This document shows, in pieces, positions 34,381 through 52,797 of a stretch of 64,000 nt of DNA. Origin of the DNA: Paeniglutamicibacter terrestris. Its GTDB lineage: Bacteria > Actinomycetota > Actinomycetes > Actinomycetales > Micrococcaceae. The notes under the pieces were generated by a model that ran no database searches, had not been told where the DNA came from, and saw only the letters and a list, made by a program, of their open reading frames with translations. How positions within the stretch are numbered: the first letter of the stretch is position 1; each line of letters starts with the position of its first letter. Position numbers and translations under genes: made by a program. The stretch is taken from assembly GCF_012271785.1 (NCBI RefSeq), contig NZ_JAAWVT010000003.1, positions 310,001 through 374,000 on the forward strand, given 5' to 3'.

Positions 34381-34527
34381 GGTCGGCATTCGAGCACCCG
34401 AGAGGGTAAGCTCTACGGTAAGTAGTAAAACTATGGTTTTCTTCGACCTCATCAGCGTTGATTCACTTGAGTCCGGCCGCTGGGCGTCGAAGACTCATTC
34501 AGCACCAACAAAGAGGAAGGGCCGTCT

Positions 34528-35403: not shown

Positions 35404-35409
35404 TCCGTC

Positions 35410-37128: not shown

Positions 37129-37130
37129 AG

Positions 37131-37532
37131 ATGAAAGTAGAGTCTTGGCTCTTCCTCGGCGGAATCTTCTTCTTCACGCCGGTCGGAATCGTTTACGGAT
37201 ACATGGTTGATTGGAAGGAGCCGGTCGGTTTCCTCGGCCTCTTCCTCCTCTCGGGCATGTGCATCCTCATCGGTTGGTACCTGCTGTTCACCGCAAAGCG
37301 CGTTGGTCCTCGTCCCGAGGACCGTCTTGATGGGGAAATCCACGAGAACGCCGGATCCATCGGAGTCTTCGCTCCGTGGAGCTGGTGGCCGCTGATCCTG
37401 GGTACGGGCGCCGCTATCGGCTTTGCCGGTTTGGCCCTGGGCTTCTGGGTAATGTTCATCGGCGTCGGCTTCACCATCATTGCGTTGGTCGGCTGGGTCT
37501 ACGAATTCAGCCGCGGTAACCACGCTCACTAG
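37131..37532 (+). CDS. ctaF: cytochrome c oxidase subunit IV (actinobacterial)
   Basis: A 133-residue four-TM accessory subunit specific to actinobacterial cytochrome bcc-aa3 supercomplexes. It starts MKVESWLFLGGIFFFTPVGIVYGYMVDWKEPVG and contains the conserved GPRPEDRLDGEI loop followed by APWSWWPLILG. It starts 2 bp after the ctaD stop. The partner genes ctaE-qcrCAB, often close to ctaF in relatives, are not in this window. Confidence 0.95.
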   Translation: MKVESWLFLGGIFFFTPVGIVYGYMVDWKEPVGFLGLFLLSGMCILIGWYLLFTAKRVGPRPEDRLDGEIHENAGSIGVFAPWSWWPLILGTGAAIGFAGLALGFWVMFIGVGFTIIALVGWVYEFSRGNHAH

Positions 37533-37563
37533 TACGGGCGTTGTACTGAAACACTGATCTCAT

Positions 37564-37611
37564 CAAGAGCGGTGCTTCTTCCCCTTGTAGGGGAGGCAAG
37601 CACCGCTCTTG
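37564..37611 (+). terminator. ctaCDF terminator
   Basis: CAAGAGCGGTGCTT pairs with AAGCACCGCTCTTG over a 20-nt loop, 32 bp after ctaF. T-run is short (GACGTTT). Confidence 0.82.
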
Positions 37612-37695
37612 ACGTTTAACGGCCCAGGCCAACAATGCGGGAGAATGGAAACACAAGGGGTGCCGGAAGGCCGTCACCCCGACGATGGAGTATCG

Positions 37696-38481
37696 ATGAA
37701 ACCCTACGCGCCACGGCCCAAGGTCAACGGGCTGATCGACGAGAATTCGCCGGTGAGCAAATACCGGCAGATTCGCGAGATCTTGCGAACCCATGCCAAG
37801 ACGGTATGCCAACCCGGGTACCGCCTGCCGCCCGAACGTGAACTTGCCGAAGGATTCAACGTCGCCCGCAAGACACTGCGTCAGGCCATCGATTCGTTGG
37901 TGGAGGAAACGGTACTCACTCGCGTGGTCGGGGTGGGCACCTTCGTTTCGCACCCCAAAGTTGACCTCCAGATCCGGCTGAACTCCTACAGCGAGGAGAT
38001 GGTCAGGCGCGGCATGGTGCCAGATGCGCACGTCTTGCGTTTTGACGAGGTACCCGCCTCCAGTAGCCTCTCCCGGCATATGGAGATCGAGGAAGGCACC
38101 ATGGTCATCCGCTTTAGTCGCCTCCTGCTGGCCGATGGCAAACCCATGAGTTTGGATGAGAATTTCCTGCCCAGCGAATTGGTGCCCGGCTTCCTCAAAG
38201 ACACCCCGCCCAGTTCGCTTTATCAGTCCTTGCATGAACGCTATGGTCTGGTTCTGGAATGGGGAGAGGATCAGATTGAAAGCACCGCAGCCAGCGCCGA
38301 ACACGCGAGCCTGCTGCAGGTAGACGTCGGCTTCCCGCTGCTGCGGATCACGCGCTACGCATTTGTTGGGGAGGGACTGGTGGATTATTCGGTCTCGCTC
38401 TACCGCTCGGATCGATACAAGTTATTTGTACCGTTGCAGCGTCAGGGGAGCCGTAGCCCGCGTTACACCACCATGCGCTAA
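37696..38481 (+). CDS. GntR-family transcriptional regulator with UTRA domain
   Basis: A 261-residue HutC-subfamily repressor. Winged HTH at about residues 17-85 (KYRQIREILRTHAKTVCQPGYRLPPERELAEGFNVARKTLRQAIDSL...GVGTFV), then a UTRA effector domain (VLRFDEVPASSSLSRHMEIEEGTMVIRFSRLLLADGKPMSLDENFLP). ATG 37696 has TGGAG 5 nt upstream; frame open to 37609 but that overlaps the terminator. Targets and effector unknown (UTRA often binds amino sugars or related small acids). It is the last core-like gene before the mobile region. Confidence 0.9.
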   Translation: MKPYAPRPKVNGLIDENSPVSKYRQIREILRTHAKTVCQPGYRLPPERELAEGFNVARKTLRQAIDSLVEETVLTRVVGVGTFVSHPKVDLQIRLNSYSEEMVRRGMVPDAHVLRFDEVPASSSLSRHMEIEEGTMVIRFSRLLLADGKPMSLDENFLPSELVPGFLKDTPPSSLYQSLHERYGLVLEWGEDQIESTAASAEHASLLQVDVGFPLLRITRYAFVGEGLVDYSVSLYRSDRYKLFVPLQRQGSRSPRYTTMR

Positions 38482-38736
38482 CAACCCCCGGCTGGTGCCC
38501 GGATCGTCACTTGGTACCCGGATCGACACTCGTGTGGCAGCTTACCCACGATCGGGCTCCGGCCGGCAGGACCGTGGCATAGCGACGCCCGGACGAAGAG
38601 TTCTCCTTCTCCTGGGATAAACAGCCGTGCTCGCTGAGCGTCTTCCGCGAGCGTGCGGAAAGTTGGATTCCGTCATCATTGTGCCGACAGGCCACACCCA
38701 TGCCGGAACAGCTGGCACATCTGCTCAGGATGATTC
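38482..38736. other. gap between gntR and transposon end
   Basis: About 250 bp with no supported gene; ends with GATTC directly before the GGGG tip of the Tn3-like repeat. Confidence 0.5.
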
Positions 38737-38774
38737 GGGGGCTGACCGGTAGCGGAACAATGGTTGGCGTTAAG
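38737..38774 (+). repeat. left 38-bp terminal inverted repeat, Tn3 family
   Basis: 38 bp beginning GGGGGCTGAC, with AGCGGAAC in the middle, and ending GGCGTTAAG. Length, GGGG tip, GGAAC core and GTTAAG inner end match Tn3-family repeats; by eye about 25 of 38 positions agree with the Tn3 repeat as I recall it. The repeat's inner end contains the stop codon of the resolvase remnant, a normal tnpR layout. A related inverted copy lies at 49436-49473. Confidence 0.8.
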
Positions 38775-39341
38775 TAGTCTGTTTGAGCGGTATGGTTCGA
38801 GTGTTGCTGGTGGCTAAGTGTCGGTAAATGGACGCGCGGGAGACTGCCAGGGCTTTGGCGATCTGGGTGGGACTCTCCCATTGGCATGTCTGGCCTACGC
38901 GGCTGCGAGGGTATCGGCTTCCATGACGGTGGGGCGACTGCCGGTGCGGCCTTGGGCACGGGCTGCGGCTAAGCCAGCCAAGGTCCGTTCACGGATCATG
39001 TCGCGCTTGAGTTCGGCGAACGCGGCCATCATGACAAAGAAGAACTTCCCTTCTCCGGTAGGACTGTAGGTTCCGGTGAGAATACGCAGGCCGACTCCTC
39101 GCTCGTGGAGGCTGTCGGCGTTGGTAAGCACGTCCTTCGCCGACCGGCCGAGACGGTCCAATTTCCACACGCACAAGGTGTCCGTCGGACGGAGATGATC
39201 GAGTCCTTCAACGAACCCCGGGCGGGCGGTGGCGCGTCTGGAGATCTTGTCTTCGAAGATCCGGCCGCAGCCCGCCGATTCAAGGGCGTTGCGCTGGAGT
39301 TGGGATTCTTGCCCTTTGGTGGAAACCCGGGCGTTACCTGT
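38770..39341 (-). pseudogene. Tn3-type serine resolvase, broken
   Basis: Serine recombinase of the resolvase/invertase family. Preserved: ARVSTKGQESQLQRNALESAG with the catalytic Ser, CVWKLDRLGRS, and FFFVMMAAFAELKRDMIRERTLAGLAAARAQGRTGSRP. Lesions: no start codon with GYARVST (reads GNARVST after unrelated sequence), an in-frame TAG at 38895-38897 after DTLAAA, and a 1-nt deletion ~20 nt further. The HTH continues in another frame as ESPTQIAKALAVSRASIYRHLA and ends inside the terminal repeat. Once the tnpR of the flanking transposon. Confidence 0.85.
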
Positions 39342-39490
39342 GACAGTTGGCCCGGAACGGCGGTTAAGTTGCAACGTCAAATGGCGGTATGCCATTTCCC
39401 TGCGGCCGCATCCCATGCAATGTTCGGCCCAAAGGGTGTCCCGCCGGTTGCGGGTGACACTGCAACCAACTTCGTTGTCGTGAGCGATGA
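39342..39490. other. unassigned stretch upstream of the resolvase remnant
   Basis: Where a res recombination site would be expected. I see no clear resolvase dimer sites by eye. Confidence 0.3.
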
Positions 39491-39492
39491 AT

Positions 39493-39832
39493 TTACCGAA
39501 GCTTTTCCGGTATCTGGAAGTTGCCGTTGTTGGCGTTGTCGGAGTACTCGCAGCAGGATGCCAACAACAATACGTCCACTCCGGTCAGGACCGAGGCCGG
39601 TGGCAGCGTCACTACCAAAGCAATAGATGCGAGCGCGCCGATGGCTTGCCGTGCCTTGGGACACCGACGATCAGCAACGGGATGGGTGAACGCAGCAATG
39701 CTCGCCAGCAGATAGTCGACGAACACCCCAGAGTACGAGAACCCGGTGGCGTGGCGCAGATCCGCCACGGTGATCACTAGGCAAATCACGACCGCGAGAA
39801 CCACTTCGGCGTGATGCGGGACCTAGTAGCGA
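39493..39832 (-). pseudogene. C-terminal fragment of an APC-family amino-acid permease
   Basis: Reading the minus strand, VPHHAEVVLAVVICLVITVADLRHATGFSYSGVFVDYLLASIAAFTH... and ALASIALVVTLPPASVLTGVDVLL resemble the last helices of APC amino-acid/polyamine permeases (PHHAE...DLR.AIGFSSFGVL.YY..AN..A.T). An in-frame TAG lies just before the first helix, and the 3' end runs into unrelated sequence. Only about 100 codons remain. It is a dead fragment inside the transposon. Confidence 0.5.
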
Positions 39833-40068
39833 GGGTGGACGGCAGCAAGCCAATTCGGCAGATCATGTTCCCTGGCCATGGCGAAACTGGTTCCCGGGTG
39901 TCGCGCTGGGGGATCGAATAAGAAATTCCAGCGGCAACTGGCAGTTGCGCACGAGCGGCACTGTCGAAGTTCGCCTAAGGGCGTTGGCAAGCTCCGGAAC
40001 CCACGGGTTGATATGTGCGAAATCGATCGCTGAATAGGTGCGTCTAGGTATCCTCGAGCGACTGCTCT
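39833..40068. other. gap, nothing recognised
   Basis: No frame with coding character was seen between the permease fragment and the histidine kinase stop. Confidence 0.4.
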
Positions 40069-41745
40069 TTAGCGTTCGTGCGGTCCACCGTGCGTGGATA
40101 CGGGCTGTGGCAGGGTGAATCGTATGGTGGTTCCTTTTTTGGGGGTACTTTGCAATCTAATGGTCCCGCCGTGCATTTCCACAATGGATTTGGTGATCAG
40201 TAGGCCTAGGCCAAGTCCGGGGATGGCGCGTTGTAAGGCCGACTCGGCCCTGAAAAACCTGGTGAATGCTTCTGCTTGCTCGGTGTTACTCATGCCCATT
40301 CCTGTGTCTTGGATGGTACATACGAGGTCTTCGCTCTCGGGCCAGGCCCGCACTGTGACAGTACCGCCATCGGGAGAGTACTTAATAGCGTTGGAGACGA
40401 GGTTATCCAGCACCTGTCCGATTCTCCCGGCATCAATGACGACAGGCATTGGACCCTCGACCAAACTCATTAAGGTGACCGCATTTGTGGCTGCCGAAGG
40501 GGCTGCTGCCGCCAAGCTGTGCGCTACTAGCTGGGCAAAGTCGGTCGGAGTAGGTCGGTACGTCAACGTTTTTGCGGTCAAAAGGTCATTGACAAGACCT
40601 AGTAGGCGTTCAGCGTTGCGTTCGATGACTGCTACAGAGCTGGCTACCTCGGAGGGGAGGTCCTGCCCGTCGTCCATGATGAGACTTGCATAGCCCAAGA
40701 TGGAGGACAACGGTGTTCGAAATTCATGGGAGACCCGGGCTACAAAGTCATCCTTGGCGGCCAGCGCGGTAAGCATGCCTGTGACGTCGTGGAAGGAAAT
40801 TACAGCGCCATCATTATTGCCATCAGCGTCCTTCATCGTGCGGGCAGTGGTGGAGAAGGCGCGGGCTCGGTCGCCCGATCCGACCCAGATCTGGCAGTTA
40901 GTGAAAGACTCGCCCCGAACGGCCCGGCGCACGGGGCGATCCTCGGTGCCCAACGGTGTCACCTTGTCCGTTCCAAACAGCAATAAGTCCTTCTCTTCCG
41001 GATCCCCGGTGTGATCGGGGACGGCAAATGCGTGGAAAGCCTGTTGGGTGGAGTTCATCAACTGGTCATGGCCCTGAGCATCAACTACCACCACGCCCAC
41101 GGGGATTGCATCCAGGACAGTGGAGAGAAGCTGTTCGCGCTGGCGGCTAGCTTCCAGCGCAGCGCGCAACTGCACATCCATGGCGAGAACTGCCAAACGC
41201 TGGCGGTCCAGTCTTGCTGTCATGCTCACCACTGTCAGGGAAAAGCCGGCCATCATGAACGGGAAGAGTAGCGGCTTGCTCAACTGCTCCGCCGTGACCG
41301 GAATACCGGCAAGAAGGATTGGGGTCCAGATGATTAACAAAGTTCCCACTAGGCTGCTGAAAACTGCCGTCTTGCGTGCCAGGCCCGAGGTAGAGAGCCA
41401 GAAGACAGGAAACAGCATCAGCAATCCAGCCGACGTTGCGTATAGCAGGCTGCCCTCACGGGTAAAGCCAATAGCCACAAAATCCAGGTACGGAATGACC
41501 AAGAAGGATGAGGTCGGGAGCCTCTCCCAAGGGACCGCAAAGCAGAGGACAAAGATGGCGGCGTGCATCCACAAGCCAGTGACAAAAACGGGATTAGCGA
41601 AGATCTGCGGGAAAACAACGCCAGCATGGACGACCATCAAAATCACCGTCAGGCTGAGTGGTGCCTGGGTGAGAATGACCCTGACCCGTAGGGAACGAGA
41701 GTGAAAGTGACGGTGAACTAAACCCGCTGTGCTGGACTGAGTCAT
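40069..41745 (-). CDS. membrane histidine kinase with PAS-like domain (orphan)
   Basis: A 558-residue sensor kinase. About six TM helices span residues 22-175. A short coiled-coil (180-205) and a PAS-like domain (about 206-325: LLSTVLDAIPVGVVVVDAQGHDQLMN) follow. HisKA has H340 in ARVSHEFRTPLSSILGYASLI; HATPase has NLVSNAIKYSPDGGTVTV, DTGMGMSN and GLGLGLLITKSIVEMHGGTI. All catalytic boxes are intact, in contrast to its broken neighbours. No response regulator gene is adjacent, so the partner is elsewhere. Signal unknown. Confidence 0.9.
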   Translation of the reverse strand: MTQSSTAGLVHRHFHSRSLRVRVILTQAPLSLTVILMVVHAGVVFPQIFANPVFVTGLWMHAAIFVLCFAVPWERLPTSSFLVIPYLDFVAIGFTREGSLLYATSAGLLMLFPVFWLSTSGLARKTAVFSSLVGTLLIIWTPILLAGIPVTAEQLSKPLLFPFMMAGFSLTVVSMTARLDRQRLAVLAMDVQLRAALEASRQREQLLSTVLDAIPVGVVVVDAQGHDQLMNSTQQAFHAFAVPDHTGDPEEKDLLLFGTDKVTPLGTEDRPVRRAVRGESFTNCQIWVGSGDRARAFSTTARTMKDADGNNDGAVISFHDVTGMLTALAAKDDFVARVSHEFRTPLSSILGYASLIMDDGQDLPSEVASSVAVIERNAERLLGLVNDLLTAKTLTYRPTPTDFAQLVAHSLAAAAPSAATNAVTLMSLVEGPMPVVIDAGRIGQVLDNLVSNAIKYSPDGGTVTVRAWPESEDLVCTIQDTGMGMSNTEQAEAFTRFFRAESALQRAIPGLGLGLLITKSIVEMHGGTIRLQSTPKKGTTIRFTLPQPVSTHGGPHER

Positions 41746-41992
41746 GGGACTTCCATCTGTGGCACGCGCCGGGCCCGGGGATCCAAGGACGACCGTGCCG
41801 CGACGTGTGAGAGGGAACTACGTGGCACCGGAAGTATTCCGGGCAACACGTAACGATAATGTCATAGCCCATCGGTGATCCCATATATTCGGCCTTGGGG
41901 AGCAGCGGCACAGCTGTTGGCGCTAAACGGGAGATCGTGGTCCCGGGCTGCGGTTCTTCTGCTACCAGAGTCGTCTGCACTCCGCAGGGTGA
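41746..41992. other. kinase upstream region
   Basis: About 250 bp holding the presumed kinase promoter on the minus strand; no other feature supported. Confidence 0.4.
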
Positions 41993-42573
41993 TCAGCGAT
42001 CGCTGGCTTTCGGCGGATCAGGCGTTTGGGTTGAGGTGGCGGTAGAGCGTCGCGCGACTCCGCCGAGCAATCGTGCCGCGTCTTCCGCGGTGCGTCCCTT
42101 CACACGAGTATCCTGCGCGATCAAGAGATTGTTGGCGGTCACTGCCGGGGCCGAGAGCGGCCGGCCGAATCTGGTGCCCGATTGACGCGCCGCGGCGATT
42201 CCGGCATTGACCCGTTCCATGATTAGCTCGCGCTCGTACTCTGTCAGAGAGGCCAAGAAGTTCAGCATCATCCGCCCGGCCGAGGTAGCTGGGTCGTTCC
42301 CGTCCGAATTGGATTGGACGTTCACGCCGCGTTCACGCCGCGTTCGCGCAGCAGGTTCACGGCATTCAGGCCATCGACCAAGGATCGGCCAAGCCGGTCG
42401 ACCCGCCATACCACCACGGTGTCTCCGGCCTCGGCGTACTCGAGCAGCTTCTTCAACCGGGCCGCTCAATAACTGTTGTTCGTGGCTGCAACGCCCACCA
42501 CTCTTTGCTGACTTCGCGGGTGGCGGTCGGCGCGTTTGGTGCCCACACCACTGTCCGTAGCCTGACGGTTCAT
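41993..42573 (-). pseudogene. second serine resolvase, broken
   Basis: The C-terminal two thirds are recognisable: DTVVVWRVDRLGRSLVDGLNAVNLL, then, after a frameshift, RERGVNVQSNSDGNDPATSAGRMMLNFLASLTEYERELIMERVNAGIAAARQSGTRFGRP and an HTH (KGRTAEDAARLLGGVARRSTA). The shift coincides with a perfect 11-bp tandem duplication (42321-42342). The N-terminal frame begins MNRQATDSGVG...QQRVVGV and stops where ARVST should be, so the catalytic Ser segment is deleted. It is not the same resolvase as the one at 38770. Confidence 0.82.
42321..42342. repeat. 11-bp perfect tandem duplication
   Basis: TTCACGCCGCG occurs twice in a row inside the resolvase remnant. Removing one copy restores the reading frame. 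Confidence 0.92.
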
Positions 42574-42679
42574 AGGCCGAGTCCTAAGGTATCTGGCTCC
42601 GGGTAAAAACCATGCAGGAACCGGTGCCCGTTAGCGATGTCGGAATCGTGCAAGCGACCTGTGCCAATCAGGTCAGAAC

Positions 42680-43107
42680 CTAGGTACCTACTGTTCGGGA
42701 GATTTCCTTCAATGCCGCCTGAAGCCTGGCATCGGCTTCGTTGGTGACCTCACGTGTCGCATCGCTCTGGCTGAGCTTGACCATGGTTTGCGGTCGATGG
42801 CCTCGATGGTGGTTTCCATGGCGGCAGGAGCGCGACGTGCGACGACGTGCGACGACGCTGCGCGGGAGCAGTGCGCCCAGCTGCGGTTCGGCGGTGTTGC
42901 CGCGTTGGGACAGTTGCGGGTTGCCGGCTCCGAGAATGATCTAGTCCCCACGGAGGCCTCGGTCTCGTGGCCCACCTTCTGGGTGATGGTCCCCTTCACA
43001 TCGATGTCCGTCAGGACGCCGAATCCCTGTTCTGCCAAGGCGCCGCGTGTCCGTTCGACAGCTTCTTGCCAGGACAGTGGGACGGTGATGGCGTGGGTGT
43101 AGGTCAC
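42680..43107 (-). pseudogene. DUF302 protein, broken
   Basis: Start GTG 43107 with GAGGAGAA upstream: TYTHAITVPLSWQEAVERTRGALAEQGFGVLTDIDVKGTITQKVG is a normal DUF302 N-terminus. The central part is deleted, and the rest reads in another frame as IILGAGNPQLSQRGNTAEPQLGALLPRSVVARR, after an in-frame stop; a 10-bp tandem duplication (42837-42856) shifts the frame again before TMVKLSQSDATREVTNEADARL. DUF302 genes often accompany rhodanese/TauE sulfur clusters, as here. Confidence 0.82.
42837..42856. repeat. 10-bp perfect tandem duplication
   Basis: GTGCGACGAC twice in a row, inside the DUF302 remnant, causing a frame change. Confidence 0.92.
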
Positions 43108-43316
43108 TGTGGTTCTCCTCGGGTCGTGGTGTGGAGGCGTGCCTGCCTCGACTGCGTACTTCGCCGCGGCAGGGGACCTCGGTTCTGTGGCCATGCTGCG
43201 GGTTGGTGTGGTCGCGCGGAGGTGTTGCCGGGGCATTGTCCGCAGGGGTCGGCCGGGGATGCGGTGGGTGCGTTTCATGCATACGGATCGCGACGATTAG
43301 CCCGGTAGACGCCCAT

Positions 43317-44422
43317 CTAGCGTCCACTCCATGCGGGACGGGCGACGTCGCCCACGGAGGCCCGTAGCGTGGGCTTGACCATGGCGGTTCCCGCGCCAGA
43401 CAAGACAGTTTCCAAGGCCCAGGCACCAAAGCCGTCCCCGAGCGCGATGAACGCCAGGGCTCCGGCCTGGACCAACATGCCGGAGGTGATGAGGTGTTTG
43501 CGTCCGATCCGGTCCGAGAGAGCACCGGTCGCCATTTGGCCTATGCCCCAGGCCCCGGGATTTAGGGCGAAATGTAGGACGATCTGGCCCATGCTGAGAT
43601 CCGCGGTGGCGAACAGGAGGTGGAACTGGCCCGAGGAGAGTCCGAAGTTCAGGTTGTTCACCAGACCGGCCAGGCTCGGCGAGGACAAGGCCGGTTCCCA
43701 GAAGCTGCTCAGGGAAAGGATTTGGGCGTTGGCTAGGATGTCGGCCAGGCCAGGCCAGGCCGAGCCGAGCGCAAGCGCCCCGGGCATCAATGTTTACGGC
43801 ATCCAGGAGGACATGTGGGGGTCTCCCGGACGGAAAGGCCTGACAGCAGCAGTGCCATTGCGGTGAAGGCGATTCCCAAGAGGAAGGGTGCCGGACGCAG
43901 CCCGGACTGTTCGGCGAGGTATCCGGTCAGCAGGGACACGGCGGCCACGTCACCGAAGCCCGCGGCCCCGTTCAGTCCCATGGCCAGGCCATGCTGTGCC
44001 GGGCCGTGCCCACCAGATCGATCTTCATGATGAGGGTGCTCGACCGGGTCAGCCCCCGGTTGATGCCCAGTAGCACGTTTGCGGCGACGGCCCAGCCCCA
44101 ATCCGGCGCAAGGATGAACATGAGCGGCAGCGGAATGGTGAAAAGCCATCGGCCAGCAGCACGGGCTTTCGTCCGTAGCGGTCCGAGAGGGTCCCGGCGA
44201 ACCAGTTGGAGGTTGCCTTGGCGATCCCGAAGGCCGCCACGTAGGCAAGCAGGAACGTGTATCCGCTCAGGCCGAATTCGAAGTGGGCCAGCAGTGCCAA
44301 GAAGGTTTGTTGCTGTCCAACCATGCCCCGACCAGCGCGTTGACCGCGACGAGCAGGCTGAACTCCGCCGCGTTGTCGCGCAAACTCAAGATGGGGAGCG
44401 CTCTGGTGGTGGACTGCTTCAT
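43317..44422 (-). pseudogene. MFS transporter, broken in several frames
   Basis: A major-facilitator gene spread over at least three frames. N-terminus from ATG 44422: FSLLVAVNALVGA; then (other frame) VGQQQTFLALLAHFEFGLSGYTFLLAYVAAFGIAKATSNWFAGTLSDRYGRKPVLLADG; then GLAMGLNGAAGFGDVAAVSLLTGYLAEQSGLRPAPFLLGIAFTAMALLLSGLSVRET; then GLVNNLNFGLS...GIGQMATGALSDRIGRKHLI. It stops early after GDVARPAW, where about five helices' worth of family sequence would continue. A 5-bp unit (CAGGC) repeated three times lies at 43746-43760. Same strand as, and directly downstream of, TauE. Confidence 0.85.
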
Positions 44423-44477
44423 GCTCGGACTCCTGGTGTGCTGGGGGCCGAAAGGCCGGACGGCGATGGGCCGGCGG

Positions 44478-45374
44478 TTAGTGGGCTTCGGTTGCCGTGG
44501 TGGTGGCGGGGGACCCCAGGGGCGTGCGTCGCAGGGGGCATGCCGGGATGGCAAACCAGCATAGGGCCGCGGCGGCCGCGATTGCGGTGGCCGTGACGCC
44601 CAAGATGAGGTTGGCGGGGGATGGTAGTTCCTGGAAGAGGACGAAGACGCCCATGGCCAGGACGAAGAAGCCAAAGCCCTTGCGCAGGGCCGATTCTGGG
44701 ATCCGTCCGGCCAGCCGGGCCCCGAGGAAGGAACCAAGGATCGCGGCGGCCGTGACCCCGCCGACCAGTGCCCAGTCCAGGGTGACTGTGGTGAGGTAGC
44801 CGCCAAGTCCGGCGAAGGACTTCATGGCGATAACTACCAGTGAGGTGCCGACTGCGACGGGCATCGACAGGCCGCCAAGCAGGGCGAGCGCCGGGACGAC
44901 GAGGAAGCCGCCGCCGGCGCCGACGAGCCCGGTGACCAGGCCCACGACTAGACCCTCGATGATGACCTTGAATGCGGGCAACTCGGCGTCGTGGGTGGCG
45001 TCGGTGTGATTCTTGCGGCCGCGGATCATGGCCAGGGAAGTGGCGACCATCATCAGGGCAAAGGCGATCATGAGGATTGTTCCGGGGATGCGGCCCCCCA
45101 GGAGGCCTCCGCCGAAGGCCCCTGCCATGCCGGCTGCGCCGAAGATCAGTCCTGTGCGCCATTGCACGCGTTTCTTGCGAGCATGAGTCACGGCGCTGAC
45201 CGCCGAGGTCGCTCCGACCACGAAGAGGGATGCAGCGATGGCTTCCTTGGGGTTCATGCCTGCAACATAGGTGAGGATCGGGACGGTGAGGATGGACCCG
45301 CCGCCGCCGAGCAGGCCGAGGGAGATCCCGATCAGCACCGAGAGCAGGAGGGCGAGTGCGAGTGTGAGGGGCAT
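44478..45374 (-). CDS. TauE/SafE-family sulfite/organosulfur exporter
   Basis: A 298-residue inner-membrane protein with eight or so TM helices in two related halves: LLGGGGSILTVPILTYVAGMNPKEAIAASL near the N-terminus and LVGAGGGFLVVPALALLGGLSMPVAVGTSLVVIAMKSFAGL in the middle are the paired TauE/SafE signatures. Family members export sulfite, thiosulfate or sulfoacetate. In this operon with a persulfide dioxygenase, which makes sulfite, sulfite/thiosulfate export is the likely job (inference). Intact, unlike its downstream neighbours. Confidence 0.92.
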   Translation of the reverse strand: MPLTLALALLLSVLIGISLGLLGGGGSILTVPILTYVAGMNPKEAIAASLFVVGATSAVSAVTHARKKRVQWRTGLIFGAAGMAGAFGGGLLGGRIPGTILMIAFALMMVATSLAMIRGRKNHTDATHDAELPAFKVIIEGLVVGLVTGLVGAGGGFLVVPALALLGGLSMPVAVGTSLVVIAMKSFAGLGGYLTTVTLDWALVGGVTAAAILGSFLGARLAGRIPESALRKGFGFFVLAMGVFVLFQELPSPANLILGVTATAIAAAAALCWFAIPACPLRRTPLGSPATTTATEAH

Positions 45375-45436
45375 GGAGGTGGCCTTGTCTTGGGAGGAAG
45401 GGCGGAGGGCGTGCGGGTTGGCGCCGGTGCGTGGCT

Positions 45437-45733
45437 TTAGGTGACGGGCAGGCCGGCGCGTTGCCAGGCGATCATGCCGCCGCCCATGGTGTCTGCGGTG
45501 TAGCCGGCCCCGGTGAGGGCGTCGGCGACGCGGGCGCTGCGGTTGCCGCTGCGGCAGATGACGATGACGGGGCGGTTCCGGTCTAGCTCCTCCAGTCGGG
45601 CCCCCAGCTCGCCCATGGGGATGTGGATGGCACCGGGGATCATGCCCTCGGTGATTTCGAAGTCTTCGCGGACGTCAAGGATCTGGTCCGTGGCACGTCG
45701 TCGCTCGGTGTCGGTGATGGAGATTTCGGGCAT
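45437..45733 (-). CDS. single-domain rhodanese
   Basis: A 98-residue rhodanese that transfers a sulfane sulfur via a Cys persulfide. Active-site loop VIVICRSGNRSARVA; flanking ILDVREDFEITEGMIPGAIHIPMGEL and DTMGGGMIAWQRAGLP are the usual ends of the fold. ATG 45733 has GAAGGAG upstream; the longer open frame to 45922 has no family match. Cotranscribed with the gene before it and TauE after it. Confidence 0.93.
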   Translation of the reverse strand: MPEISITDTERRRATDQILDVREDFEITEGMIPGAIHIPMGELGARLEELDRNRPVIVICRSGNRSARVADALTGAGYTADTMGGGMIAWQRAGLPVT

Positions 45734-45852
45734 GGTCTGCTCCTTCGGGGGCGTGTTCAAGCGGCATGTGGGTGTTTTTCGGGCCCGGATCAAGGTGATC
45801 CGGGCCCGAAACCGGGAGAAATTCGGTTGGGAGCGGACCAACCGGGTGGGTG

Positions 45853-46437
45853 CTACGACTTCTTGGTCGGAAGCTGAGCGAGGACTGATGTGCGGGTCGG
45901 TTCGTTGCCGGTCTTGTTCCATGGCATTACTGATAGGGCTTTGCCCATGGCGCAGGTGTTGGTGGCAGCCGAGAAGGTCAGGCCCGCGCCGATGACTCCG
46001 GCGACGCTGCGGATCTGCGGGGACAGGAACCTGCCCCCGACCAATCCCGCAATGACGAGGGAACCGGCGGCCATGCGCACCTGGCGTTCCAGGTCCCAGC
46101 GCTTGGAACCTTCCACGGTCTGACCTCCGGCCTGGTGGTAGGCGGGAACGCCGCCGGCCAAGACGTGGGCGTTACCGAATCCGACTGACGCGAGGTTGGT
46201 CTTGGCTTCGGTGGCGCGCACTCCAGATTGGCAGACCAGCACCACCTTGGTGTTGAGCTTGGCGGCGAGTTCTTCGGTGTGTTCGGCCAGCAGCGGGAGG
46301 GGGACGTTGTATGAGCCCAGGATGTGTAGGGATTCGAATTCGGCGGCGGAGCGCACGTCAAGCACCACGACGTCAGATCCGGTGGTGATCCAGTCCTTGA
46401 GTTCTTCGGGGCTGGTGGTCTGGGGAACAGGGTTCAT
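45853..46437 (-). CDS. rhodanese with DUF2892 membrane domain (YgaP-like)
   Basis: A 194-residue protein. Residues 1-105 are a rhodanese (VVVLDVRSAAEFESLHILGSYNVPL; active-site VVLVCQSGVRATEAK). Residues 115-170 form a DUF2892/YgaP-type hairpin of two TM helices (MAAGSLVIAGLVGGRFL... GVIGAGLTFSAATNTCAMGKALSVMPW). The fusion anchors persulfide transfer at the membrane. It lies between cstB and the single rhodanese in the sulfur operon. Start ATG 46437 (MNPVPQTT) fits family layout. Confidence 0.92.
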   Translation of the reverse strand: MNPVPQTTSPEELKDWITTGSDVVVLDVRSAAEFESLHILGSYNVPLPLLAEHTEELAAKLNTKVVLVCQSGVRATEAKTNLASVGFGNAHVLAGGVPAYHQAGGQTVEGSKRWDLERQVRMAAGSLVIAGLVGGRFLSPQIRSVAGVIGAGLTFSAATNTCAMGKALSVMPWNKTGNEPTRTSVLAQLPTKKS

Positions 46438-46545
46438 GGCTGGTGGGCCCTTTCTGCCGGGCATGGCGCCCAGCGGCATCCTGCATCCGGAAGGGGGATG
46501 AGGAAATACGTAGAATTTGTGGTCGGGGGATGGGTGGTGGAGAAC

Positions 46546-47943
46546 TTAGGCGTTCTGCAGTTGCTTCCAGTTGGCCCATCCGGAGTAGCTGCCCTCGAGT
46601 TCAACAATATTGAACCCGGCACGGCGCAGCGCGGAAGCAGCTACGGAGTTGCGTACCCCGGACTGGCAGTAGCTCACGATCACACCGTTGGCTGGAAGGG
46701 TGTTGGTGTTCCAGAGCACTCGTCCTGCGCTGAGCTGCTCGGAACCCGGCACGTGCCCGGCGGTGTGCTCGGTCTTGTTGCGCACATCCAGCAGTAGGGC
46801 GGCGTCGAACCCTGCCAGCTCGGCGGGGGAGATCGTGCGAGGCACGTAGAGGGGCAATCCGTCCAGGGACGTGATGTATCCGGCGACTTTGTCGATGCCC
46901 ACACGGATGAGGTGGTCCCACATCTCGGTGGCACTTTTGCTGTCCGGAGCCAAGAGCACCAGCGGGCGCTGGTCGGTTTCGGGGTCTACGGCCCAGGCGC
47001 CGTAGCTTGCTGCCTTGGTGCCGGCGGGAATGTTCAGTGCCCCGGCGACGGTGCCTTCGTGGACCAGGGTGTGGTGGCGCGTGTCGACCACGCCGATTGC
47101 GTCGGCAGCTAGAGCCGCGGCGACGTCGTCGGTGGCCAGCTCGGTCAAGGGTGTTCGCTTGCCTATGATGGCCGGGCCCTGGCGGTTTTCGCGTTTCATG
47201 CGGCCGAAGTAGGCGTGGGCATCGGGCTGTCCGTCAAGCAGTGCCTCGACGAAGCCTGCCTCGTCGTTCGATTCCAGGTAGTGCCCCCACCAGGCGAAGT
47301 TGCGCTCGTAGCCAACGGTGGAGGACGGGATCGCGCCCAGTGCCTTGCCACAAGCACTGCCGGCGCCGTGGCCCGGGTAGATCTGTATGTAGTCGGGCAG
47401 GGTGAGGAACTTGTTCTTCAGCGAGAGGAATAGGTCGTGGGCCCCGGCGAAGCGGGTGTCGGTGCCGCCGGCGGCCTCGTCAAGCAGGTCCGGGCGGCCC
47501 AGGTCGCCGGAGAAGACGAAGTCGCCCGAAAGTAGGAAGCCGGGCTTGTCGCTGAAGGCGCCGTCGGTGACCAGGAAGGAAAGATGTTCAGGGGTGTGTC
47601 CGGGGGTGTGTAGGGCGGTGACGGTGATGTTTCCCAGCGTGATGGTGGACTGGTCCAGGAGGCGTTCGGCCTCGAACTCGTATTGCCAGTCGGCCCCGCC
47701 CTCGCCCGAGACGAAGATGGCGGCGTCGGTGGCGGCGGCCAGTTCGCGGGTGCCGGAGAGGTAGTCGGCGTGAATATGGGTTTCGGTAACAGCGACGATC
47801 TTCATGCCGTTTTTGGCGGCGAGGTCCTGGTACACCTGGATGTCGCGGCGGGCATCCACTACAACGGCCTGGCCCTTGGCCTGGCAGCCGATGAGGTAGC
47901 TGGCTTGTGCGAGGTCCTCATCATAGATGCGTTCGAGAAGCAT
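46546..47943 (-). CDS. cstB: persulfide dioxygenase-rhodanese fusion (CstB-like)
   Basis: A 465-residue three-part enzyme. Residues 1-240: metallo-beta-lactamase fold of the ETHE1/persulfide dioxygenase kind (ETHIHADYLSGTREL, LHTPGHTPEHLSF, LSGDFVFSGDLGRPDLL). The fourth metal position is Tyr instead of His (HIHADY), acceptable because ETHE1 iron uses two His and an Asp. Residues 265-355: a degenerate rhodanese without Cys. Residues 375-460: a rhodanese with active Cys in VSYCQSGVRNS. This is the CstB domain order (dioxygenase, pseudo-rhodanese, rhodanese), oxidising low-molecular-weight persulfide to sulfite/thiosulfate. GGAGAG precedes ATG. Two palindromic operators lie just upstream. Confidence 0.92.
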   Translation of the reverse strand: MLLERIYDEDLAQASYLIGCQAKGQAVVVDARRDIQVYQDLAAKNGMKIVAVTETHIHADYLSGTRELAAATDAAIFVSGEGGADWQYEFEAERLLDQSTITLGNITVTALHTPGHTPEHLSFLVTDGAFSDKPGFLLSGDFVFSGDLGRPDLLDEAAGGTDTRFAGAHDLFLSLKNKFLTLPDYIQIYPGHGAGSACGKALGAIPSSTVGYERNFAWWGHYLESNDEAGFVEALLDGQPDAHAYFGRMKRENRQGPAIIGKRTPLTELATDDVAAALAADAIGVVDTRHHTLVHEGTVAGALNIPAGTKAASYGAWAVDPETDQRPLVLLAPDSKSATEMWDHLIRVGIDKVAGYITSLDGLPLYVPRTISPAELAGFDAALLLDVRNKTEHTAGHVPGSEQLSAGRVLWNTNTLPANGVIVSYCQSGVRNSVAASALRRAGFNIVELEGSYSGWANWKQLQNA

Positions 47944-47974
47944 GGTCTCTCCTTAAGGTGCGTGAATCGTCGGA

Positions 47975-47992
47975 GATACCCCATGGGGTATC
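47975..47992. promoter_or_regulatory. CstR-type operator 1 (before cstB)
   Basis: An 18-bp perfect palindrome GATACCCCATGGGGTATC, 31 bp upstream of the cstB start. Confidence 0.82.
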
Positions 47993-48011
47993 CGGCTGTT
48001 CATTAAACCGT

Positions 48012-48029
48012 AATACCCCCGGGGGTATT
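48012..48029. promoter_or_regulatory. CstR-type operator 2 (before cstB)
   Basis: An 18-bp perfect palindrome AATACCCCCGGGGGTATT, 37 bp from operator 1 centre to centre. Confidence 0.82.
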
Positions 48030-48128
48030 GGTCAAGTCGTTCAATAGATGCCCCAAGGTTGCCTGAAATGCAAGAGTGGCCGCCGGCGTCGGAGTAAACG
48101 GTGCCGACCGCCGCTAATTTCGGAGCAG

Positions 48129-48311
48129 TTAGGCTCGACGGCCAAAGAGGCGCGCGAAGTACCCGCCCTTCTTGCTGGACTCTTTCGGGGCCTTTGGGTC
48201 GCAGGAGCAGCGCTCGCTCTGCGGCACGTGGGCCATGACCTGTTTGACGTGCTGGCCGCATCCGGCCCAGGTGGTTTTCTGGCACTTGCGGCATTTGGTG
48301 GCGCGGCACAT
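48129..48311 (-). CDS. small Cys-rich conserved protein (CRATxCxxC type)
   Basis: A 60-residue protein, MCRATKCRKCQKTTWAGCGQHVKQVMAHVPQSERCSCDP..., with six cysteines (C2, C7, C10, C18, C35, C37) and several His. Short proteins starting CRAT.C..C.K.TWAGCG.H occur widely in Actinobacteria; function unknown. The Cys pattern suggests a small zinc or metal knuckle. It lies between the cstB and cstR control regions and is followed by a basic/aromatic tail (GGYFARLFGRR). Operators 3 and 4 are upstream, so co-regulation with cstR is likely. Confidence 0.75.
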   Translation of the reverse strand: MCRATKCRKCQKTTWAGCGQHVKQVMAHVPQSERCSCDPKAPKESSKKGGYFARLFGRRA

Positions 48312-48377
48312 GTGGTGGCTCCTTGAGGGTCAGGTTATTGCGGGGGCGGGATAACCCCTTCGCATTCGAGTATTGCA

Positions 48378-48395
48378 TATACCCTAGGGGGTATT
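48378..48395. promoter_or_regulatory. CstR-type operator 3
   Basis: TATACCCTAGGGGGTATT, an imperfect palindrome of the same type in the divergent region between the Cys-rich gene and cstR. Confidence 0.75.
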
Positions 48396-48422
48396 GAGCA
48401 TCCTTGTTTTCGAGTTACTTCA

Positions 48423-48438
48423 AAACCCCTGGGGGTAT
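48423..48438. promoter_or_regulatory. CstR-type operator 4
   Basis: AAACCCCTGGGGGTAT, 38 bp before the cstR start. Confidence 0.7.
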
Positions 48439-48475
48439 ACAATGAGGGAAATTACCACACACGAAGGGGCTCGTC

Positions 48476-48733
48476 ATGGAACTTGAAGCGGAAACCATGA
48501 AACCCGCAATTAATAGGCTCAAGCGCGCTCAAGGGCAGCTTAATGCGGTGATTCGCATGCTTGAGGAGGGCAGTGATTGCCGCGCGGTGGTCACTCAGCT
48601 TTCAGCAGCCTCCAAGGCCATCGACCGCGCCGGTTTCTCCATTATCGCCACCGGGTTGGAGCAGTGCCTCAAGAGTGAGGACTCCTCAAACGATCGCGCC
48701 GAGATGGAAAAACTCTTCCTCTCCCTGGCCTAA
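48476..48733 (+). CDS. cstR: CstR/CsoR-family persulfide-sensing repressor
   Basis: An 85-residue all-helical repressor (DUF156). N-terminal NRLKRAQGQLNAVIRMLEEGSDC gives the family helix and C35; the second Cys is C64 in ATGLEQCL. Copper-sensing CsoR has His four residues before that Cys; here it is Gly60, so copper sensing is unlikely and the two-Cys layout fits CstR, which forms di/trisulfides with persulfide. Neighbouring dioxygenase, rhodaneses and TauE support this. ATG 48476 with GAAGGGG upstream. Autoregulation by the palindromes upstream is inferred. Confidence 0.9.
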   Translation: MELEAETMKPAINRLKRAQGQLNAVIRMLEEGSDCRAVVTQLSAASKAIDRAGFSIIATGLEQCLKSEDSSNDRAEMEKLFLSLA

Positions 48734-49270
48734 CCCCGTCTAATCAGCGGCCATTTTCCCTGGAATTTGACCACGGGTATCCGGGGTTCTGGCAGCGCAC
48801 ATGCGAGAACGTCGTCGGTGCAGCGGTTTCGTAACCGCCACGGAATTGTTCCCCAGCCGCAAAGCGGGCCGTGGCGATCAGAGCCCATGTTCGTCACTCG
48901 GGTACCGCGCACCGAGCAGGGCTATCCACTGAGGTTGGTTCATCCAGTGGCCCAAAGGGCGAGGGTAGAAGTTAGGCCGCGCGGCCATTTAGCGCTGTGA
49001 AGAGGAGGCCATGTGCCGTTGCGATTCACAATCTAGCTGTTTAAATTTTGATGCCAAGTTGTCACGGTGGGGGTTAGCTTTTGCGACACTATGTAGGTTG
49101 CCACTTTTTGGACCGGCCGCCGTGGCGGTCAGAGGTGGACATATGCGTAGCCATCGTGCAGGTGTTGGGCCAGACGCGCGATGGCCGCAGGGACGTCCAC
49201 GACGCCTTTGACCAGCGGCGCCCCGGTTACCGGCAGCCTGATCCTGACAAGGATCTTCGTTAAGGCTACC
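48734..49270. other. no intact gene; degenerate sequence
   Basis: About 540 bp after cstR. The minus-strand frame 49129-49368 includes DVPAAIARLAQHL, which may be a shifted continuation of the tnpA remnant. Otherwise nothing is recognised. Confidence 0.35.
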
Positions 49271-49408
49271 CTCGCCGTGACGGCGACCAACCAAGTCCAT
49301 TTCCTGATCGTCAAGAAAGAGGAAACGTTCCAACTCGGCCCGCGAGATCGGACTTGAGAACTGGCCATACACCGCTACTGGGTCTTCACTGAGAAATCCA
49401 ACTGGCAT
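49271..49408 (-). pseudogene. N-terminal stub of a Tn3-family transposase
   Basis: MPVGFLSEDPVAVYGQFSSPISRAELERFLFLDDQEMDLVGRRHGE matches the start of Tn3-family TnpA (DUF4158: MPV.FL...AA.YG.F..P.SRAQLERFF.LDD.D..L...RRG.HNRLGFA). About 46 codons remain, then the frame diverges; some 900 codons of a normal TnpA are missing. The stub begins just inside the right terminal repeat, as expected for tnpA. Confidence 0.8.
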
Positions 49409-49435
49409 GGCACCAATTTGCGTTAATCGCGAAGG

Positions 49436-49473
49436 CTTGGCGCTAACCATTGTTCCGCTGCAGCTCAGAACCT
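49436..49473 (-). repeat. right terminal inverted repeat, Tn3 family (degenerate tip)
   Basis: Reverse-complement relative of the 38737-38774 repeat: CTTGGCGCTAACCATTGTTC... with about 30 of 38 positions matching by eye, including a 15-bp identical core AACCATTGTTCCGCT. The outer tip reads AGAACCT instead of GCCCCC. No 5-bp target duplication matching GATTC is visible outside it. Confidence 0.75.
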
Positions 49474-49551: not shown

Positions 49552-50004
49552 TCATCCTTCGTCCTCTTTATCAGGGGTGTGGGCGACCAAGACGGGGCAG
49601 GTGGCGTGCGCGATGCAATATGAGCTGACCGAACCAATGAGCAAGCCTGCGAGCCTGCCGTGGCCTCTGCGGCCTACGATGAGCAGGTCGGCATTCCTAC
49701 CGGCTTTGATGAGCGCGGATCTCGGATCCCCTTGCACCAAGCTGACTGTGACATTGCTGGGTGTATCGGTGCCGAAAACACTGCTCACTGCCTGGTTCAG
49801 GAGGTTCGCGGCGCTCTCTTTGAATCCCTCGATGCCTGCGAGCAGGTAGCTGTCATACATCCGAGGGAAGTCCCAACAGCCGATTGCCTCGATGTGGGCG
49901 TTCAACGAACCGGCTAAGTGTTGGGCGTGCCGAAGCGCTTCGAGGGAAGCGTCCGACCCATCCACACCCACAATGATTTTCGATATTCCGTATCCAGGTC
50001 TCAT
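49552..50004 (-). CDS. universal stress protein (UspA family)
   Basis: A 150-residue Usp with the ATP-binding fold: KIIVGVDGSDASLEALRHA at the N-terminus and GRRGHGRLAGLLIGSVSSYCIAHATCPVLV at the C-terminus, containing G-2x-G-9x-G-(S/T). ATP-binding type Usp proteins are typical of DosR hypoxia regulons. Start ATG 50004 with GGAGG upstream; the frame is open to 50040. It is the first gene right of the transposon end. Confidence 0.92.
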   Translation of the reverse strand: MRPGYGISKIIVGVDGSDASLEALRHAQHLAGSLNAHIEAIGCWDFPRMYDSYLLAGIEGFKESAANLLNQAVSSVFGTDTPSNVTVSLVQGDPRSALIKAGRNADLLIVGRRGHGRLAGLLIGSVSSYCIAHATCPVLVAHTPDKEDEG

Positions 50005-50561
50005 AGGAGCCTCCAGTGCTATGGGTGTAGGGCTTCCCAAGCTACCGACTGCGCCGTTGGAACACCATAGGAGTCCAAGAATTTCCAGCTCCTCGCCGTC
50101 GGCGGCATTCCCCTAGGGCGCCTGCGAGTGGAGAATAGTCGGCGGGCGCACCGACCAAGCAGCTTTTCCGATCCGCTGTCCCTAATACCTAGGTGACAGC
50201 TGCTAATGGGGCGTCAGCATTCGCACCCATGGTAGAGGCGGTAGAGGCTGGTGCCCGGTCACGGAATAGAGCTTGCCGTTCAGGACGTTTTCCCTCCATC
50301 AAGGGCAACGCCAGCAAATGAACGAAGCAGAGTCTTAGTAGGGAGCGCGAGCCGGTCCGCGACATTAACCCAACGCACAAGCTCCATGCATCCCCTCACG
50401 GCATCAATGCCGGACAGCACGGGCCGGCGCCAAGTTTCTCTCCGTTCAAACAATGAGGGTGTCCACAAGTCTTGTCCCATCACGTCCTGCTCCGTAGCCT
50501 TGGCTTCACGGACACCTCCCGGTTGTCTTTTTTGATGAAGGACTAACCCTGAGGACGCTGT
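50005..50561. other. divergent region between usp and alcohol dehydrogenase
   Basis: 557 bp with no supported gene. It contains a 9-bp tandem duplication GGTAGAGGC (50231-50248) and a hairpin-like GCTGTC...GACAGC around 50175-50200. A minus-strand coding-like stretch near 50280-50480 (CMELVRWVNVADRLALPTK) may be a remnant; not recognised. Confidence 0.4.
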
Positions 50562-51632
50562 ATGAAAGCCCTGATCTATCATGGCCCCGGCGACATGTCT
50601 TGGTCGGAGGCCCCCAAGCCGCAGGTTCTCAACCCGGGGGATGCCATCGTTCGAGTAGAGACCACCACCATCTGTGGCACTGACCTTCACATCCTCAAAG
50701 GGGATGTTCCTGCGGTGCAGCCGGGACGGATCCTGGGTCACGAGGGCGTGGGCACGGTGGTGGAAGTCGGTCCGGGCGTTCACGACATTACGGTGGGTGA
50801 CCGGGTCCTGATTTCCTGTATCAAGTCCTGTGGACACTGCTCCAACTGTCGGGTGGGCCTATACTCCCATTGCCTAGGGGAGGAAGGCCAATCCGGCATC
50901 GGGTGGATTTTGGGGCACTTGATCGATGGCACCCAAGCCGAATACGCGCGGATCCCATACGCTGACAACTCGCTTCACAAGATCCCCGAGAACGTCAGCA
51001 ACATCGAAGCGGTCATGCTCTCAGACATCCTGCCCACCGGGTTTGAGATCGGTGTGTTGGCCGGCAGGGTCAATCCTGGGGACGTGGTGGCCGTCATCGG
51101 TGCCGGCCCGGTCGGGCTTGCCGCCGTTGCCACAGCAGGACTCTGCGGCGCGGGAACGATTGTGGCTATAGACCGTGACACCAACAGACTTGACCAGGCT
51201 CAGGGTTTCGGGGCTACGGACACCGTCAATTCCACTCACGTGGACTGGCAGAGTCAGGTGTTGGCACTCACCGACGGTGAGGGAGTGGACGTGGCGATCG
51301 AAGCCGTCGGCCTACCCGAAACCTTCACTATGGCCGTTGACCTCGCCCGCCAGGGCGGGCGCATTGCCAACATCGGGGTCCACGGCGCCAGTGTGGAACT
51401 TGCCCTTCAGGATCTGTGGATCCGGAACATCGGAATCACAATGGGCTTGGTCAACACCAACACCACTCCGATGCTGCTCAAACTCGTGGCGCAGCACAAG
51501 ATCCCGGTAGCCAAGTTCGCCACACATTTCTTCACCCTCGATCGGATGATTCATGCCTATGACACCTTTGCCCGGGCTTCCGAAACGAAGGCATTGAAAG
51601 TCATTATCAACCGCGCCTCGGCGCTCGCCTAA
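50562..51632 (+). CDS. zinc-dependent alcohol dehydrogenase family protein
   Basis: A 356-residue MDR dehydrogenase. Catalytic zinc: CGTDLHILKG (C38 region) and GHEGVGTVVEVG. Structural zinc: CGHCSNCRVGLYSHC. Rossmann: VAVIGAGPVGLAAV. It resembles stress-associated zinc alcohol dehydrogenases of Actinobacteria, sequence unlike the one at 661. ATG 50562 follows TGAGGACG. The next gene starts 10 bp downstream, so they form an operon. Substrate unknown. Confidence 0.92.
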   Translation: MKALIYHGPGDMSWSEAPKPQVLNPGDAIVRVETTTICGTDLHILKGDVPAVQPGRILGHEGVGTVVEVGPGVHDITVGDRVLISCIKSCGHCSNCRVGLYSHCLGEEGQSGIGWILGHLIDGTQAEYARIPYADNSLHKIPENVSNIEAVMLSDILPTGFEIGVLAGRVNPGDVVAVIGAGPVGLAAVATAGLCGAGTIVAIDRDTNRLDQAQGFGATDTVNSTHVDWQSQVLALTDGEGVDVAIEAVGLPETFTMAVDLARQGGRIANIGVHGASVELALQDLWIRNIGITMGLVNTNTTPMLLKLVAQHKIPVAKFATHFFTLDRMIHAYDTFARASETKALKVIINRASALA

Positions 51633-51642
51633 GGAGTTCATC

Positions 51643-52284: not shown

Positions 52285-52295
52285 GAAGAGAAGAG

Positions 52296-52607
52296 ATGAA
52301 CACGGCACCGGCGAGGCCCGAGCGGATCGTCGTTGACCTCGGTGACTCAGGAAGCTGCACCAACGAGGTCAAAACCGCTGCAATCACTACAACGGATTTG
52401 ACTGTGGAAGTGCGTATTCTCGAGTGCTGGAGCAGCTTGGAAATTCCCTTTGACTTGAGATTGTCAGGAGATCAGATCCTGGACGCTGAATGCTTGGCAG
52501 ACAAACTGTGCGATTGGTCGATGACATTTCCGATCGTGCCTTGGGTTCAAACTGCCCACCTTGGCCGAGCATCGCCTTCACGTATGGTCATTCGGCCGCG
52601 GTCCTGA
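52296..52607 (+). CDS. hypothetical protein
   Basis: A 103-residue frame starting 11 bp after the previous stop, with AGGAAGAGAAGAG before the ATG. Acidic in the middle (FDLRLSGDQILDAECLADKLCDW) and basic at the C-terminus. Not recognised. The spacing and ribosome site favour translation. The latter third may be read-through into non-coding sequence. Confidence 0.4.
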   Translation: MNTAPARPERIVVDLGDSGSCTNEVKTAAITTTDLTVEVRILECWSSLEIPFDLRLSGDQILDAECLADKLCDWSMTFPIVPWVQTAHLGRASPSRMVIRPRS

Positions 52608-52797
52608 TCGGGGACATTACCAACACCCGAATGCTTGACTTGCGCCAATGTGGTTGAGGTGGTTCGGAAGGCATACCATCGTTTCGGTTTTAGTCGGCCT
52701 GCTCCGACCACCCATTCCCGCCACGTATTGATGGTCACCAAGCCGTAACCAACGGATACCGCCAAGATCACTGTTCAGCAAACTCTGAAATGAGTCG

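Follow-up and report, generated by a model that had tools for sequence, protein, structure and literature searches.

The window analyzed here is a 64,000-nucleotide stretch of the genome of Paeniglutamicibacter terrestris (positions 310001–374000 of contig C23; the genome comprises 4.34 Mb in 31 contigs). Positions are those of the window unless another sequence is named. The window contains a block of genes for putative persulfide detoxification (the cst block), which is enclosed by two related 38-bp repeats in opposite orientation, at 38737–38774 (plus strand) and 49436–49473 (minus strand). A preliminary description of the window had taken these two repeats as the ends of a decayed 10.7-kb transposon of the Tn3 family with the cst genes as its cargo.

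Within the cst block, the gene for a CstR-like repressor of the CsoR family (48476–48733) is located on the plus strand. The minus strand carries open frames for a CstB-like persulfide dioxygenase–rhodanese (46546–47943), rhodanese 1 with a YgaP-like transmembrane domain (45853–46479), rhodanese 2 (45437–45922; its true start may lie further in), and a TauE/SafE sulfite exporter (44478–45374). These are accompanied by a broken gene for an MFS transporter (43278–44422, minus strand, several frames) and a broken DUF302 gene (42683–43107, minus strand, two frames). CstB matches the solved structures 3tp9 and 3r2u over almost its full length; the latter, listed as a metallo-β-lactamase family protein, is presumably CstB of Staphylococcus aureus. 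The motif THIHAD and the loop CQSGVR, which holds the active-site cysteine of the last rhodanese domain, fit a fusion of a dioxygenase of the metallo-β-lactamase fold with rhodanese. CstR proteins are characterized by two conserved cysteines and the lack of a histidine ligand four residues before the second cysteine. The protein encoded in the window has two cysteines and no histidine at this position, which is occupied by glycine in the alignment, by asparagine in the nearest structure (7mq1, which we take to be a CstR), and by histidine in 2hh7.

Between cstR and cstB there are three operator-like sites that follow the pattern ATACCCC-N2-GGGGTAT; in some of them, one pair is mismatched. Two palindromes are found upstream of cstB (ATACCCCATGGGGTAT at 47976–47991 and ATACCCCCGGGGGTAT at 48013–48028) and a near-palindrome upstream of cstR (ATACCCTAGGGGGTAT at 48379–48394). 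All three have a counterpart at the matching position in 13 of 13 loci (these are not independent, four being plasmids of much the same sequence), indicating that the regulatory layout is conserved. By comparison, 200 shuffles of the window's cstR–cstB interval gave a mean of 0.03 matches and a maximum of 1. From what is known of these protein families, the block would form an operon under repression by CstR; persulfide would inactivate this repressor and be oxidized by CstB, and the product would be exported by TauE.

Both 38-bp repeats are related to the left inverted repeat of the Tn3-family transposon Tn6517, with which the repeat at 38737–38774 shares 32 of 38 positions (6 mismatches) and the repeat at 49436–49473 shares 33 (5 mismatches). 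When the window was shuffled 50 times by mononucleotides, no shuffle contained a 38-mer with fewer than 13 mismatches to this Tn6517 repeat. The two repeats of the window agree with each other at 29 of 38 positions, including one identical run of 15 bp; the tip of the right repeat is decayed and reads AGGT, the GGGG being lost. The kinship extends inward from both repeats. The segment 38737–39338 has 84% nucleotide identity to the tnpR end of Tn6517 (615 aligned positions for tnpR), and 49264–49472 has 85% nucleotide identity to its tnpA end, and both pieces match Tn6517 in order and orientation. On the left, the serine resolvase gene tnpR is a pseudogene (38800–39344, minus strand) in two pieces with 81–88% amino acid identity to Tn6517 TnpR, broken by an in-frame TAG (38895–38897) and a frame change near 38853–38877. 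On the right, a Tn6517-like tnpA is represented by its first 48 codons (49265–49408, minus strand), which are 79% identical to Tn6517 TnpA; the remainder of the gene was not found. A C-terminal fragment of a DsrE-family gene (49132–49215, minus strand) lies close by. These similarities support the assignment of both repeats to a decayed Tn6517-like element of the Tn3 family. The preliminary description was correct in this assignment, in the position and relation of the two repeats, and in placing the start of tnpA beside the right one, although it counted 46 codons instead of 48. It had further placed the stop of the resolvase gene within the left repeat, which proved wrong: the frame is interrupted by the TAG mentioned above, and in Tn6517 itself tnpR ends 22 bp inside of the repeat.

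The proposed boundaries of 38737 and 49473 could not be maintained. The segment is flanked by GATTC on the left and AACTC on the right and is thus without the 5-bp target duplication expected around it. A search with the left end gave a match at C23:384181–384216 and thereby revealed a third Tn6517-type repeat, missed before, at 74174–74211 (C23:384174–384211), 10 kb past the end of the window. The two outer repeats (38737–38774 and 74174–74211) are identical to each other at 31 of 38 positions, and each is identical to the left repeat of Tn6517 at 32. The left one is directly preceded by GATTC (38732–38736), followed by GGGGGCTGACC as the first bases of the insertion. At the right junction, GGTCAGACCAC is directly followed by a second GATTC (74212–74216; C23:384212–384216, outside the window).

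In the congeneric genome G011, the corresponding site is empty. An alignment with a 20-kb stretch of G011 (L050) shows the left flank up to 38736, continued by the sequence from 74212 onward, with a single GATTC. This same stretch matches 34902–38539 at 97% and 38652–38746 at 83% on the left, and 74212–74536 at 75% and 74540–89647 at 95% on the right. Of 12 more stretches from congeners, 11 likewise have the genes that flank the G011 site on the left and right next to each other, with a gap of 0.7–3.8 kb; the twelfth (G010) is uninformative, and the island site of G012 lies outside this comparison. The GATTC duplication and the empty site of G011 therefore pair the repeats at 38737 and 74211 as the ends of a 35,475-bp unit. 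Judging from these junctions, the inserted unit is the stretch 38737–74211, located on the chromosome beside the ctaCDF-GntR genes, with 38737–38774 as its true left end. Thus, the comparison with relatives proposed earlier did yield an empty site, but with the right junction at 74211 and not at 49473. For the internal repeat, which has no matching target duplication, a partner was sought by way of the 5-bp flank, and no fitting flank was found among the repeats listed. The possibility that GATTC belongs to a longer, extended repeat was rejected for the island, since in repeat orientation the outer flanks read GATTC and GAATC, i.e. they form a direct repeat.

The island has the 38-bp repeats and the 5-bp duplication of the Tn3 family, but no intact transposase gene was found inside it. 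Using three Tn3 transposase queries, tblastn detected in C23:310001–414999 only the ∼48 codons at 49.3 kb. The island is therefore at most a non-autonomous Tn3 derivative and no autonomous member of the family.

A second Tn3 remnant, likewise not recognized previously, is found inside the island. It consists of a 38-bp terminal repeat at 41890–41927 (plus strand) and a tnpR pseudogene at 42062–42456 (minus strand; two frames, 75–83% amino acid identity). The element to which it belongs, which we call element B, has an apparently complete copy elsewhere in this genome, on contig C29. The repeat in the window is identical to the tnpR-side repeat of the C29 copy at 34 of 38 positions, and the stretches 41890–42470 (repeat and broken tnpR) and 42614–48736 match element B at 81–84%, the former matching its far end.

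On C29, element B is 14,129 bp long (L017 4338–18466) and consists, in this order, of a repeat, tnpA, the block with cstR and cstB, further cargo, tnpR, and the second repeat. Its terminal 38-bp repeats are mutually identical at 34 of 38 positions. TnpA comprises 1064 amino acids without internal stops and scores above the cut-off with PF01526 and NF033527 (PF13700 is also matched), and tnpR encodes a resolvase of 191 amino acids. The pentamer GGTAA is found at both flanks as a 5-bp target duplication, and genome G014 provides the empty site, with flanks of 3538 bp (left) and 1504 bp (right) that show 99.9% identity and overlap by exactly 5 bp. With transposase, inverted repeats, resolvase, and 5-bp duplication all present, element B on C29 is apparently a complete transposon of the Tn3 family. 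Related copies occur in G013 (99.5% identity over 13.3 kb) and G003 (97.7% over 9.8 kb). Neither has a target duplication (flanks TTAAC and TATCT in G003; GGATA on the tnpA side and GATTC on the tnpR side, L054 5711, in G013), so that one of the three copies examined possesses one. In the G013 copy, tnpR is 87% identical and is split by a 2.7-kb insertion. GATTC also stands before element-B-type repeats at L054 5706–5710 and L060 13907–13911, perhaps as a target preference. The C29 flanks of element B (L017 800–4337 and 18467–20000) are 99.9% identical to the G014 chromosome. For comparison, most genes at the island site show 75–86% identity when G011 is compared with other congeners. The region targeted by element B may thus itself have undergone a recent exchange between species.

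Antibiotic, mercury, and arsenic genes are the cargo with which Tn3 transposons are mostly associated. Because the C29 element has both a target duplication and an empty site, the cst block can be regarded as Tn3 cargo, and element B on C29 is the best evidence supporting persulfide detoxification genes as cargo of this family in the genus. The earlier proposal that sulfide or persulfide tolerance travels as Tn3 cargo is thereby supported, more strongly through element B than through the 10.7-kb segment from which it was drawn. As judged from its match to element B, the persulfide block in the window is an arrival with that element, separate from the Tn6517-like one. The combination of repeats, transposase, resolvase, duplication, empty site, and a CstR-type persulfide operon in element B indicates that tolerance to reactive sulfur can spread the Tn3 way, and genomes with and without the insertion are available for measuring the worth of the persulfide cargo.

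A homologue of CstB length is found at 15 places in 11 of the 15 genomes of the genus, and a twelfth genome (G008) has short matches only. The tnpA gene of element B adjoins cstR at 3 of the 10 cst places whose surroundings were compared (the window and L017–L025), a comparison by nucleotide similarity that more distant transposases could escape; the five remaining places (those in G005 and G012 and the second copy each of G003, G013, and G014) lie outside it. At the cst place of G010, a 0.8-kb piece is 64% identical to tnpA. Within the family, 31 of 295 genomes have a relative of TnpA at E values up to 1e-100. Among public genomes, CstB lies near a related tnpA in 2 of 74 kept loci, from the species of G003 and G013; these loci derive from the best 80 of 166 tnpA relatives, some are on short contigs, and records close to the window's genome were possibly left out. 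In P. antarcticus (L103) and in Arthrobacter sp. ERGS1:01 (L060), nearly the same tnpA has different neighbors. In P. antarcticus, tnpA (element-B-like, in two frames) and tnpR enclose pilin-type SpaA proteins and a sortase (L103 9224–21165), possibly surface pili as cargo of an element-B-like transposon.

Four Arthrobacter plasmids carry, after the cst block, a resolvase gene with 93–94% identity to the element B resolvase; two of the four (L063 and L064) also have a repeat there that differs from the element B repeat at 7 positions. In the stretches fetched from these four plasmids, tnpA was neither annotated nor found by blastn. In pA58H2 (L061 20931–23877) and the YC-RL1 plasmid (L062 17763–19871), a gene for a Mu-type transposase follows the element-B-type resolvase, in pA58H2 together with an AAA ATPase. 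Here, it looks as if a resolvase of this type had been exchanged between Tn3 elements and elements with a Mu-type transposase, which we take to be Tn402-like.

We consider it probable, at roughly 80%, that a mosaic island of 35,475 bp (38737–74211), of which the window covers the left part, contains the remains of at least two Tn3 elements. One would be the Tn6517-like element, with its tnpR end at 38737, its tnpA end at 49473, and its middle lost; the other is represented by the tnpR end of element B at 41890. The outer repeats would have been recognized by a TnpA that acted in trans or has since been lost, and a mosaic, non-autonomous, TIME-like element mobilized in trans would suit this arrangement. 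Several observations weigh against the mosaic island as drawn. Both outer repeats are resolvase-side ends, although regular Tn3 elements are bounded by a tnpA side at one end and a tnpR side at the other, and just inside the right outer repeat, which is itself Tn6517-like, lies an element-B-like tnpR end (77%). The genome's one full-length Tn3 TnpA of this kind is that of element B, which is only 52% identical to Tn6517 TnpA (its other TnpA matches are the 48-codon piece and two short, weak ones), so that there is no known source of a matching transposase. Moreover, the flanks nearest to the insertion are 75–83% identical to G011, compared with 95–97% further out, 112 bp (38540–38651) are absent from G011, and ∼0.8 kb of G011 (L050 4037–4860) was not found in the corresponding stretch of the window's genome; the site is therefore otherwise not untouched. 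The precise empty site of the island comes from one genome (G011), a single 5-bp match has a chance of 1 in 1024, and the 35 kb may have arrived jointly or piecemeal.

How the island came about can be read in several ways. One reading is that a 10.7-kb Tn3 transposon, now decayed, was inserted here as a single unit (38737–49473) with the cst cluster as cargo. In its favor are the tnpR and tnpA pieces in Tn6517 order and orientation and their similar divergence (84 and 85%). However, this reading is very unlikely given the unequal flanks GATTC and AACTC, the right junction at 74211 in the empty-site comparison, and the fact that the cst block has, at 41890, the tnpR end of a different Tn3 element. 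We judge it equally improbable that the cluster is an old resident block with the Tn3 pieces as chance neighbors. The wide occurrence of CstB-length homologues (11 of 15 genomes) and the presence of element B tnpA beside cstR at only 3 of 10 places would agree with an old resident, but the C29 block is enclosed by the two repeats of a single element that has tnpA, tnpR, a target duplication, and an empty site, and on the four Arthrobacter plasmids it is followed by the closely related resolvase. As a variant of the favored reading, the island could have grown stepwise: a smaller Tn6517-like element inserted at GATTC first, and the cst block, stress genes, and IS110 gathered inside it through subsequent insertions and recombination, in which case the 35 kb would at no time have moved as a single unit. 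We hold this for possible, at somewhat less than even odds. The nested remnants (the element B end at 41890, the internal Tn6517-type end at 49473, the out-of-place DsrE fragment, and the IS110-family transposase gene) speak for such growth, whereas the right outer repeat is not the tnpA end expected of the original partner of 38737. Alternatively, and just as tentatively, the 35-kb unit may have moved as one block in trans between the resolvase-side ends of two Tn3 elements. On this wider proposal, a partly broken Tn3 network would trade stress islands among chromosomes and plasmids of the Micrococcaceae, with persulfide tolerance regularly carried by at least one complete transposon; the genes in question are those for persulfide detoxification, universal stress proteins, Hsp20, a BON-domain protein, a glutamate–cysteine ligase family protein, a P-type ATPase, and NhaA. 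Stepwise growth and movement as one block are about equally simple, and the data favor neither.

Between the left end of the island and the element B remnant lies a gene for a PAS/HisKA histidine kinase (40069–41745, minus strand), with homologues elsewhere in G007 and G013 and a partial one in G010. The preliminary description had listed it as cargo together with cstR, cstB, the two rhodaneses, and TauE. The latter stand as open frames of the cst block, but the kinase lies outside it, a point that had been overlooked, and was rejected as a member of the cluster, because its homologues are far from the cst clusters of their genomes (∼93 kb away on the same contig in G007, and >1 Mb from either cluster in G013). 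Apart from the kinase homologue, a piece 80% identical to 39530–39891 is located ∼18 kb from a cst cluster of G013 (C9:153851–154213). The remainder of the island (window 49552–62676 and L015) is rich in stress-type genes, including two universal stress proteins, a zinc alcohol dehydrogenase, a P-type ATPase, a GAF histidine kinase, Hsp20, a BON-domain protein, GCS2, a GDSL lipase, an ion channel, and NhaA. An IS110-family transposase gene is also found there (L015 8319–9356, corresponding to window coordinates 64318–65355). G004 has homologues of 59302–60396 and of parts of 63307–64000 within 20 kb of its own cst cluster. Outside the island, an open frame of 851 codons (34495–37050, minus strand) runs antisense to ctaC and ctaD, which were named by eye; it is most likely a by-product of base composition.

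Among known systems, the cst operon of S. aureus shares with the block in the window a CstR-type repressor and a CstB-type fused dioxygenase–rhodanese, but differs in gene order and in the TauE, MFS, and DUF302 partners found here. Neither CstA nor Sqr was identified in the block, although no dedicated search for either was made. The closest named relative found for the window repeats, as judged by their similarity, is Tn6517, for which a length of 7,080 bp and a transposase, a resolvase, and hypothetical passengers are given on the Arthrobacter plasmid pA40H2 (PMC6305408). The segment in the window resembles Tn6517 in its 38-bp repeats, in tnpA reading inward near one and tnpR outward near the other, and in its ends (84–85% identity). 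It differs from Tn6517 in that only 48 codons of tnpA are left, tnpR no longer forms an intact frame, and other DNA has taken the place of the interior. TIMEs and mosaic non-autonomous Tn3 elements, described as 38-bp Tn3 repeats without a transposase of their own around other DNA and with duplications of 5 or 6 bp (PMC4133298), are similar to the island in the repeats, the 5-bp duplication, and the lack of a transposase. Compared with the TIMEs portrayed there (PMC4133298), the island is far larger and is bounded by the tnpR ends of larger elements instead of by miniature ones. For the cluster as Tn3 cargo, we found no report in the open-licence literature. A cst-type cluster was published in 2018 as the plasmid-borne “SUL module” of Antarctic Arthrobacter, which has a CsoR-family regulator, a sulfur dioxygenase, two rhodaneses, TauE, MFS, and DUF302 in the same order as the block in the window (PMC6305408). 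Whereas the passages describing the SUL module present it as a plasmid module, without a link to a transposon (PMC6305408), the block described here is also found inside an apparently complete Tn3 element.

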